DNA of 64,000 nucleotides. It comes from Bacillota bacterium (lineage in GTDB: Bacteria; Bacillota; UBA4882; UBA10575). Location: contig JAAYHY010000104.1 of NCBI GenBank assembly GCA_012735135.1, forward strand, positions 1-64,000. Reading direction: 5' to 3'. Shown here in pieces: positions 4,804 through 47,490 of this stretch. Every line of letters starts with the position of its first letter. Position 1 is the stretch's first letter. The notes below the pieces were generated by a model, which saw only the letters and a program-made list of their open reading frames with translations, was not told the origin of the DNA and searched no databases. The translations under genes and the position numbers were made by a program.

Positions 4804-4905
4804 AATATTTGACCTCCTTTACCTAGAAAACGCCTTCGAAGCTTGTCGACTCACCCGGCTTTAATTTCCATCCCTTCTTGTGCTGGCAGAAGCCGGCGTG
4901 GGCAA

Positions 4906-5757
4906 CTACTTATATGTTTTGTCCCTTTCGCTTTCAATAAGGGCCCCCCAATCCTCTTTACTCACCTTTTTAGCCCACTGTAACTCGAGAATTTGCCCGT
5001 TTGGATAATAGGAACCCACATCATTAAAATCTTCAATCTTCACGATCTTACAGGTATCATCATTGGCAATCCAGATGTAAAAATCTTTCCCGAACATCGC
5101 CGCGAGCAACCCTTTACCGGTAAATTTATATTTCTGGCAGCCCACCCCGTTGACGCTCTCTTGACCAAGGTCCTCTCCGGCAAGATCACAATAAAGACCG
5201 TAGCGGTAGTAACCTACCTCAAATTTCTTTTGTTTTTGATTTAAAAATTTCATCCCCAAGGCAAGTTCGGTTGTTCTTTCAAAGGTGGGAAGCCTTTTAA
5301 ACTTTATTTGCTCGACATAGCTATTGATTGCCCCTTTTTTATCCCTGGACTTGCCTTCGCATTGCCAGTAATAATCATAAAAATTATCAACCGTTCGGCG
5401 GTGACTGATCGTATAATTGGGCGGGACATTTTCAACCGGATTCAAACATCTTATCTCCCTGCGCTTTGGCATAAAATAACGCCAGTCATATTCATAAAGA
5501 TAATGATAGACCACTGTGGGGTTTTTATAGGTAAAAAGGGTTTCAACTACATCTTCCGCGCTTATGTAAATGTAGTAGTCGCATATTCCACCCGTCTCAT
5601 CCCCCACGCCGGCACTAGTGTAGTAATACAAGGTACCAACGGCTATTTTATTCCGGTCAAAAACAAACAGATCCAAACTGTCACGGGCATCCACCGTTGA
5701 GCCTATCGCCAAAATCAATAAAAAAAGAAACAAGGTTACTTTCTTCATCTTTATCAC
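4906..5757 (-). CDS. exported protein of unknown function
   Basis: Signal peptide MKKVTLFLFLLILAIGSTVDA; possible LolA/DUF4412-like pattern (VNGVGCQKYKF...WIANDD), low certainty. Confidence 0.6.
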   Translation of the reverse strand: MIKMKKVTLFLFLLILAIGSTVDARDSLDLFVFDRNKIAVGTLYYYTSAGVGDETGGICDYYIYISAEDVVETLFTYKNPTVVYHYLYEYDWRYFMPKRREIRCLNPVENVPPNYTISHRRTVDNFYDYYWQCEGKSRDKKGAINSYVEQIKFKRLPTFERTTELALGMKFLNQKQKKFEVGYYRYGLYCDLAGEDLGQESVNGVGCQKYKFTGKGLLAAMFGKDFYIWIANDDTCKIVKIEDFNDVGSYYPNGQILELQWAKKVSKEDWGALIESERDKTYK

Positions 5758-22487: not shown

Positions 22488-22611
22488 CAGATGTTCCCTC
22501 CCCGTGCCCCTATGCTCAATCTTCCCCTGCCAATGACATGTCTTGGTTTACGTACTCGCCGGTTATGCCAATTATCACCTCGAAGGGAACGAATAGTGTT
22601 CTTCGTTACTC

Positions 22612-22700
22612 AGAGAATACCTTCGATGTTTGTCGACTCACCCGGCTTTGAATTTCATTACTCAGTTCAAAACTGACAGTAGCCGGCGTGAGCGACTACC
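22612..22700 (-). other. recurring ~85-nt intergenic leader element (copy B)
   Basis: Minus: GTAGTCGCTCACGCCGGCT...AAAGCCGGGTGAGTCGACAAACATCGAAGG...TTCTCTGAG; matches copy A at 4825-4910. Confidence 0.6.
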
Positions 22701-22702
22701 TT

Positions 22703-22886
22703 GAATTTCTTCGTCAGATCTTTGCGAAGCGGAGCTTGAAAGCGGGTCGCGCGGCAGGGAAGCCGTGCGCCCTGTTGGTTAAGGAGGAACCATCAAGCGG
22801 TTACCCGCTTTCAACGGAGCTGAACTTTAGAATACGCGAAGAAATTCTTTGGAGCGAGGAAACACCATTCGGTCCCCGGGAGGAAT
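22703..22886. ncRNA. candidate structured RNA or mobile-element-derived RNA (copy 1)
   Basis: Nested perfect helices: 22703-22713/22837-22847 (11 bp), 22736-22747/22803-22814 (12 bp), 22748-22755/22762-22769 (8 bp, one G.U). 3' part repeated at 46328-46436. Confidence 0.6.
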
Positions 22887-22894
22887 AATGATCT

Positions 22895-24541
22895 CTACTC
22901 CAACCCCAAATAGGCGCTGATCTCCAGCGAGGCTTTGCGCGCCGTATCAAGGGATTCCCCTTGTTCCTCCCGGTAATCTTTGATGATGTTTTCGGTCCCG
23001 GAGGCCCGTTTCAGGACCCAGACGCCGCCGGTTAAGACCACTTTCACCCCGTCCCCGATCGCCAACCGTTCAATCGTCCGTCCGGCAATCTTCTTTCCGG
23101 CCAGTAAGGCCTTGACCTGGCCGGGATCGGCCGCCAACCGGGCGAGGCGGGCTTTTTGCTCCGGCCGGGCCGGGCGGTCCTCCCGTTCATACTGGTAGGG
23201 ACCGTACTCTTTTTCCAGTTCCTGGTAGAGGAGACCGATCTCCTTACCGGTCGCCGCCATGACCTCCATCATCAAGAGGACAGCGGCGATCCCGTCCTTT
23301 TCCGTCACCCATAAACTCCCGTCCCGCCGCGGAAAGGAGACCCCGGCGCTCTCTTCTCCGGCCAAGACATATTTCCCCGCCTGCAACCCGGCCACGTAAT
23401 GCTTGAAGCCGACATTCACCTCGTAGGCGGGACGGCCGTACCGGGCGGCGATCCGGTCCAGCAGATGGGTGGTGCCGATGGTGCGTCCCACCCCCATCGC
23501 CGCCGGGAAATTCCGGTGCGCCGCCAGGTAGTCAAAGAGCACACACAAAACATGATTGGGGTTTAAGATCCCGGTGGTGTCTTCGCCCCCAAAACGGTCG
23601 GCATCATTGTCATTGGCCCCGATGAAGGAGACCCGGAGCCTTTCCCGCATCCCCGCCACCGCCATCATCACATAACGGGAAGACGGATCCCCCCGGAGCT
23701 TACCGTCCCAATCGTAAGTCCGGTGGGAAGAAGCGGGATCCGGTTCCGCCAGCACCACGTCGATTTGGGTTCCGTACAGATCGTTAACCGCCTCATAATA
23801 CCCGTTGGCTGAACCGCCCAAGGGGGTAACGGCGAAGCGTTCCTTTTTGATCAGATCCATATCCACCACCGTGCCCAAGTCCCGGACATAGGGGGTGAGG
23901 AGATCCACCGGTTGGACCAGCCTCTTTTCGATGGCGGTTTGGTAGGGCATCCGTTTAATCGCCGCCGGATGCTCCAGGTAGTAATTGCTCTTTTCATCGA
24001 TGGGTTTCGTGTTTGTATTCGGCCCGCCGTCCAAACCGTTACTCTTATACCCGGCGTCTTCAGGAGGATTATGGGAAGCGGTGATGATCACCCCTTCCAC
24101 CTTTTCCCCGCGGGCCACCCGGGTCAGAATGGCATGGGAAATAACCGGGGTCGGTGTGCTCCTTCCTCCCTGATGGATTAATACCTCCATCCCATTGCCG
24201 GTAAAAACCTCGATGGCCGTTTCCTGAGCCAAATCGGAAGCGAAACGCACATCTTTCCCCATCACCACCGGACCAAGGGGTCGATCCCGCAAAGCGGCGG
24301 GGAGAACGGGCCCGAAAGTTCCATGTTCGTGCCGTAAATCCACCAGCGCCTGGGTCATCGCCGCCACATGGCGGTCGGAAAAACCCGGCCCAACCGGGCC
24401 CCGGTGGCCGGAAGTCCCGTTTTTAACCGGTTTTAATTCCCCTTGGGGATTAGTGTACCATGCCGTGATCTGTTCTTTGGAATAGAGATCCTCGGGCCGG
24501 GCTTGCTGACCGGCCAGCGGATGCAGTAAACGTGGCGCCAT
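22895..24541 (-). CDS. pgm: phosphoglucomutase, alpha-D-glucose-phosphate-specific
   Basis: GTSGHRG, TASHNPPEDAGYKSNGLDGG, DNDADRFGG, KRASGTENIIKDY. Start set to the ATG with spaced GGAGG. Confidence 0.92.
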   Translation of the reverse strand: MAPRLLHPLAGQQARPEDLYSKEQITAWYTNPQGELKPVKNGTSGHRGPVGPGFSDRHVAAMTQALVDLRHEHGTFGPVLPAALRDRPLGPVVMGKDVRFASDLAQETAIEVFTGNGMEVLIHQGGRSTPTPVISHAILTRVARGEKVEGVIITASHNPPEDAGYKSNGLDGGPNTNTKPIDEKSNYYLEHPAAIKRMPYQTAIEKRLVQPVDLLTPYVRDLGTVVDMDLIKKERFAVTPLGGSANGYYEAVNDLYGTQIDVVLAEPDPASSHRTYDWDGKLRGDPSSRYVMMAVAGMRERLRVSFIGANDNDADRFGGEDTTGILNPNHVLCVLFDYLAAHRNFPAAMGVGRTIGTTHLLDRIAARYGRPAYEVNVGFKHYVAGLQAGKYVLAGEESAGVSFPRRDGSLWVTEKDGIAAVLLMMEVMAATGKEIGLLYQELEKEYGPYQYEREDRPARPEQKARLARLAADPGQVKALLAGKKIAGRTIERLAIGDGVKVVLTGGVWVLKRASGTENIIKDYREEQGESLDTARKASLEISAYLGLE

Positions 24542-46063: not shown

Positions 46064-46327
46064 ATGCGGGAACTAACCGTGACCATTAAAACGAAAACCG
46101 GATTGCACGCCCGGCCGGCCGCCCTCCTCGTCAATACAGTATCAAAAGGAAAGAGCAAGGTAACGATCGAAAAGAACGGAAAGGAAGCAAACCTCAAAAG
46201 CCTCCTCGGTTTATTAAGCCTGGGGGTGGAAGAAAACGATACGGTCACCATCAAAGTGGACGGCAAAGATGAGGATGAGATCATCGCCGCCTTAAGCCAA
46301 TGTGCTAAAGAGAATGAACTCTGGTAG
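46064..46327 (+). CDS. ptsH: HPr phosphocarrier protein
   Basis: KTGLHARPAALLV; KSLLGLLSLGV. Confidence 0.95.
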   Translation: MRELTVTIKTKTGLHARPAALLVNTVSKGKSKVTIEKNGKEANLKSLLGLLSLGVEENDTVTIKVDGKDEDEIIAALSQCAKENELW

Positions 46328-46436
46328 CCGGAGCTGAATGGTGTCCCTTGCTCCGGTGAATCGCCTGGCGTATTCTAAAGCTCAGCTTCGTTGAAAGCGG
46401 GCAACCGCTTGATGGTTCCTCTTGAACCAAAAGCGG
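46328..46436. ncRNA. candidate structured RNA (copy 2, partial, opposite orientation)
   Basis: 46369-46420 matches the reverse complement of 22785-22836 at 49/52 positions by eye, plus shared downstream GGAGC-AGG-ACACCATTC. Confidence 0.5.
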
Positions 46437-46455
46437 CCGGCGGCGATCCCATTAC

Positions 46456-47461: not shown

Positions 47462-47490
47462 CGGTAGTCGCTCACGCCGGCTTCCGCCAG
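47462..47490 (+). other. 5' arm of recurring leader element (copy C)
   Basis: CGGTAGTCGCTCACGCCGGCTTCCGCCAG; matches the minus-strand arm at about 4885-4910. Confidence 0.45.

Follow-up and report, generated by a model that had tools for sequence, protein, structure and literature searches.

Between two minus-strand genes, which we take to encode a phosphoglucomutase-like protein and a macrodomain protein, the window (the whole 64,000-nt stretch that was analysed) contains a composite repeat of about 311 bp, in which a hairpin module, B, is inserted into a longer palindromic module, A (Table 1). We orient the element by its UCC strand, the one that runs in the same direction as the gene upstream. 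The initial annotation had delimited a candidate structured RNA at 22703-22886; this interval covers the core part of the element rather than a lone RNA, and the left part, from near 22575, had been missed. The ends at 22575 and 22885 were placed by the symmetry of the terminal inverted repeats (TIRs) together with the TA dinucleotides that border the whole element at 22573-22574 and 22886-22887. Module B likewise reads GTCGCTCACGCCGGCT...AGCCGGGTGAGTCGAC...CTGAG between two TAs, at 22607-22608 and 22697-22698. The interval is non-coding, as had been proposed, with only a mechanical 66-aa ORF (22688-22888) and no supported gene across it.

Table 1. Coordinates of the composite element, its structural parts and further module copies in the window
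Feature	Position	Strand	Evidence
Complete composite element (module A carrying module B)	22575-22885	-	~311 bp; repeated part 22585-22879 by BLAST
Imperfect TIR, low-coordinate end, TCACCTCGAAGGGAACGAATAGTGTTC	22575-22601		Sequence; agrees with A ends of other copies
Module B, 88-bp hairpin, inserted into module A	22609-22696	-	Identical ends in 19 B copies
Module A core, Y-shaped palindrome hit by both covariance models, R1 and R2	22702-22846	-	139 bits (window sequence belonged to the R1 training set)
Outer 11-bp helix, 22703-22713/22837-22847	22703-22847		Arms perfect
Tandem G·A mismatch, GA 22726-22727 opposite GA 22822-22823	22724-22825	+	Four letters kept in 21-25 of 25 copies
Inner 12-bp helix, 22736-22747/22803-22814, with both hairpins inside	22736-22814		Arms perfect
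Apical hairpin, 22748-22755/22762-22769, loop AGGGAA carrying GGA	22748-22769	+	GGA (UCC on -) in 24/25 copies
Apical hairpin GGTT-AAGGAGG-AACC, GGA in loop	22777-22791	+	GGA (UCC on -) in 23/25 copies
Imperfect TIR, high-coordinate end, GGAAACACCATTCGGTCCCCGGGAGGAA, terminating GAATGGTGTTTCC on -	22858-22885		Sequence and TIR pattern search
Module B copy standing alone, UCC/GTCGCTCAC oriented on -	4819-4909	-	BLAST against own genome
Second module A copy, truncated, beginning at the upstream gene's stop codon	46327-46437	+	84% over 98 bp to window copy

The 11-bp and 12-bp helices first described from the letters alone are nested and perfect, and the accompanying 8-bp helix is present as one of the two apical hairpins, although one of its pairs is G·U. 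A nested pair of 11 and 12 bp arises in only 1 of 20,000 dinucleotide shuffles of 22703-22886, and the fold z-score of the interval is -1.9 on the + strand and -4.0 on the - strand; the nested helices are real and beyond chance.

A BLAST search of 22500-22900 against its own 2.56-Mb genome, a check that the initial annotation had suggested, returned 42 places, which split into two sets corresponding to module A (query 201-380) and module B (query ~86-203). The module A set comprises the window copy, five other full copies at 79-87% identity, and half copies. The ends of module A are TIRs, and the TIR pattern CNGGGNCNGAATGGTGTTTCC, with up to three mismatches, matched the genome 54 times compared with 3 for the reversed control. 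Module B has one asymmetric end; 19 copies share identical ends, the left flank of module B copies being TA and the right end often reading AGG followed by TA. Module B lies inside module A at the same position in several loci (the window, L008, L009, L023, L025 and L127), and the reverse nesting, with A inside a B-like outer unit, occurs at L003 and L038. Within the window, the block GGAGCGAGGAAACACCATTC, thought to recur at 46.3 kb, is absent elsewhere even with three mismatches, but a diverged, truncated copy of the element does lie there (~46327-46437). A half copy of module B (GGTAGTCGCTCACGCCGGCT) is also present at 47464-47482, shortly ahead of a gene start.

Comparison with related genomes identified orthologous sites without the element. 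The insertion at L003 is absent from four relatives (G002, G003, G006 and G008), in which the flanks abut; in G000, which carries it, a three-base repeat (TAG) borders the insertion on either side, and the site is exactly a stop codon with a ribosome-binding site after it. The module B nested in the window element has TA on both sides, with A next on the right, so that the unit being repeated is apparently TA, not TAG. At L005, the element begins at the TA of a stop codon, as is often the case for the flanking TA; G003 lacks this element, and G008 has the right half only. The window site has a counterpart in a relative (L081, DUQR01000033.1) in which 368 bp are absent and the flanking coding DNA is ~85% identical; this junction is fuzzy rather than clean because ~60 nt of host-side sequence also differ. 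Duplications of TA alone are short, and some copies have no TA on one side. Orthologous sites without insertion, together with TA repeated on both sides, imply that the modules move. Thus, their presence at dozens of sites, the two-module mosaics, the empty orthologous sites and the flanking TA show that modules A and B are mobile, and the interval belongs to one copy of a mobile repeat dispersed in the genome, in line with the "mobile relic" that the initial annotation had entertained. Target duplications appear to differ by lineage: TA here, 6-7 bp in G043, and in G058 a stretch of ~21 bp that includes a terminator hairpin.

The fold of module A extends well beyond recognizable sequence similarity. 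Built on six copies of the own genome, the covariance model R1 detects strongly diverged members in other, related genera, among them GC-rich copies in G009 (60-64 bits) whose sequence barely aligns and whose fold is the same (z -10.5). In a 25-sequence alignment fitted to the covariance model, 40 of 55 pairs showed changes on both sides (98 cells versus 17.4 in shuffles), and in an unfitted MAFFT alignment without g3, 14 of 41 pairs did so (24 cells versus 5.7), although the shuffle values are not probabilities because the copies are related. These compensatory changes show that the architecture, a single extended palindrome whose tip branches as a Y into two hairpins, has been kept despite strong sequence divergence between genera. 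Additional copies and covariation, two of the observations by which the RNA candidate was to be tested, were both found, and the covariation is strong. Covariation alone, however, is no proof of a functional RNA, given that palindromic mobile DNA can yield it.

Departures from pairing provide a simple, reusable test of which strand, if any, is selected as RNA. At pairs with a Watson-Crick consensus, G·U and A·C departures were 29:32, without strand bias; TPP riboswitches of related genomes, run through the same programs, gave 34:0, with pairs in that control not limited to Watson-Crick consensus and chosen by RNAalifold, which avoids A·C. The equality of G·U and A·C suggests that single copies decay without strand preference, as mobile DNA would. 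A separate RNAalifold count per strand gave a 60:23 excess of G·U on the GGA strand, which we discarded as misleading because some pairs have G·U as their consensus; the excess is gone once counting is limited to pairs with a Watson-Crick consensus. Two consensus pairs are G·U on the + strand only, and the tandem G·A letters of that strand are among the best conserved, so that some strand-specific role, as RNA or single-stranded DNA, may exist; the ancestral folded strand may have been the + (GGA) strand, in either form.

We searched 61 genomes with a second covariance model, R2, and found matches in all genera of the family but one, as well as in G043 (16 places), G058 (6), G031 (3) and G039, with a marginal match in G030. 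Those in G058 and G031 coincide, on the opposite strand, with above-cut-off matches to the Rfam family TwoAYGGAY (RF01731). Four other loci (L140, L143, L151 and L135) match TwoAYGGAY below the cut-off, the best family member being L135 with 28 bits against a gathering cut-off of 43 bits. RF01731 has no match in the window or in its own genome, the window copy included, and across the whole window no Rfam family reaches its cut-off. The window family is a distant relative of TwoAYGGAY, with homology established through the intermediates in G058 and G031. TwoAYGGAY and the related Bacillaceae-1 RNA (RF01690) share with it a stem leading to two hairpins with GGA loops, a tandem G·A and dispersed multi-copy occurrence. 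It differs from TwoAYGGAY in falling below the RF01731 cut-off, in its loop letters, and in being shown here to be mobile DNA; the GGA core is kept in 23/25 and 24/25 copies, and the full AYGGAY is mostly missing, the loops being mostly CAGGAGG and AUGGAGG. The idea of a new ncRNA class accordingly needs qualification, as the family is related to a known Rfam motif and its single copies carry no sign of RNA-strand selection. TwoAYGGAY occurs at 27 places in G055 and 10 in G058 (E<=0.01), which suggests that it is itself a dispersed repeat.

TwoAYGGAY was first described with the RNA status "probable" (PMC2864571), and has since been proposed to bind CsrA, with a tandem G·A noted in its stem (PMC4333381). 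The window family could, by extension, be a functional structured RNA of this type, for instance a CsrA-binding sponge with two GGA loops that has multiplied in the genome. The GGA in both apical loops, the tandem G·A with covariation, the proposed CsrA binding of TwoAYGGAY (PMC4333381) and the presence of CsrA in the own genome all fit this scenario, which we nonetheless consider unlikely. Genomes with copies but without CsrA offer a direct test of the CsrA idea: CsrA was not found in three g3 genomes (G009, G014 and G015) with 10, 7 and 5 matches, respectively, so CsrA is unlikely to maintain the fold there. The equal G·U and A·C departures also count against an RNA, as do the copy number and nesting, which are typical of a mobile repeat. 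Moreover, the strand in the sense of the neighboring gene mostly carries UCC, not GGA. When g3 is set aside, 21 of 23 module A copies have an upstream gene that is co-directional with the UCC strand (p=6.6e-5, from crude ORF-based gene calls and copies that are not fully independent), and this gene usually lies <100 nt away; the distant G043 copies show no orientation bias (6:4). Loci that contain the gene neighboring the window copy come from metagenome-assembled genomes labelled "Bacillota bacterium" and "Hydrogenispora sp."

Taken together, these data make it probable that the locus holds a non-autonomous, ERIC/MITE-like, palindromic mobile element that targets TA, is non-coding, and represents a divergent branch near TwoAYGGAY. 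As in the ERIC, Correia and RUP MITEs, the units are short, non-coding and palindromic, lie between genes and have inverted ends and TA at the target (PMC2229807). Their dispersal in many copies, the TA duplication and the empty sites in relatives also agree with an ERIC-like MITE. The window family has no sequence relation to those elements, and is distinguished by a Y-shaped core kept by covariation across genera, by the nesting of A and B, and by its host, from a little-known group of Bacillota. RUP, in addition, has an IS630 partner, whereas no IS630 transposase was found in the genus of the window. No autonomous element between TIR pairs, nor an autonomous partner with the same ends, was found in the own genome, a fragmented metagenome-assembled genome; the only wide TIR pair there, spanning 1.1 kb in C69, holds a short derivative at one end and no transposon.

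This model of a TA-targeting element invokes an enzyme, since lost or still unrecognised, that would have worked in trans, reading either the ends or the folded strand and placing the element at TA. The fold would be needed while a lineage is mobile, with neutral decay in each inserted copy. Module A copies would settle mostly just downstream of a gene and in one orientation, and the fold in the window is probably co-transcribed behind the phosphoglucomutase-like gene, where it may tune mRNA processing in the manner of ERIC, whose effect on the mRNA upstream depends on its orientation (PMC2229807).

A further scenario is a REP/RAYT-type system in which an IS200-like Y1 transposase moves the palindromes. 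The palindromes of such systems also adjoin the 3' ends of genes, and module B is often preceded, at its base, by GTAG, the tetranucleotide that marks REP sequences in other bacteria. Y1 transposases (PF01797; IS200/RAYT) are, however, absent from the own genus and from G008; elsewhere in the family, a weak one occurs in G009, and the only strong gene, L071 in G012, a member rich in module B, is a relic with two stop codons (G012:C139:14305-14625). As the insertions also have TA repeated on both sides and the unit is far longer, we regard this scenario as very improbable. An omega RNA of an IS605/TnpB-type element, a likewise structured non-coding sequence linked to mobility, was suggested by a resemblance seen in the initial annotation only, and can be practically dismissed, as no TnpB (PF07282) was found in cis, in the own genome or in the 12 family genomes searched, there is no TnpB or IscB-type neighbor, no omega/HEARO or other relevant Rfam family matches the window at the gathering cut-off or at E<=10, and the ends and target differ. 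TnpB, Y1 and IS630, all absent from the genus, were accordingly rejected as movers.

These findings connect TwoAYGGAY, an orphan Rfam motif for which a CsrA-binding RNA has until now been the guess, with a family of dispersed mobile elements. A bolder generalisation, which we find rather doubtful, is that TwoAYGGAY, Bacillaceae-1 and the window family form one Bacillota superfamily of Y-shaped mobile palindromes that have kept their shape but not their sequence. A transposition enzyme would then act on the folded single strand of their DNA, with its GGA loops and tandem G·A; the orphan Rfam "RNAs" would be misread DNA elements.

Several copies have unusual arrangements. At L039 (G011), module A is surrounded by tandem outer units, each with a CCCCAGC..GCTGGGG hairpin. 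L130 (G000) and L060 (G006) share an unusual form of module A, in which the apical hairpin has gained an additional insert, and have similar flanks, representing either a shared subfamily or an orthologous insertion. In the complete chromosome of G043, the sixteen model matches (L153-L168) lie within a repeat with inverted ends GATTCYRCTGCAAAA...TTTTGCAGTRGARTC, and several copies have flanking direct repeats of 6-7 bp, identified by eye (L156 GCTCTAT, L159 ATATCTT, L167 AAATTTT and L162 CAAAGCT). In G058, all three TwoAYGGAY-type copies examined (L187, L188 and L193) have a near-identical local terminator hairpin (~21 bp) on both sides, and these hairpins differ from site to site, as if insertion at terminators duplicates them.
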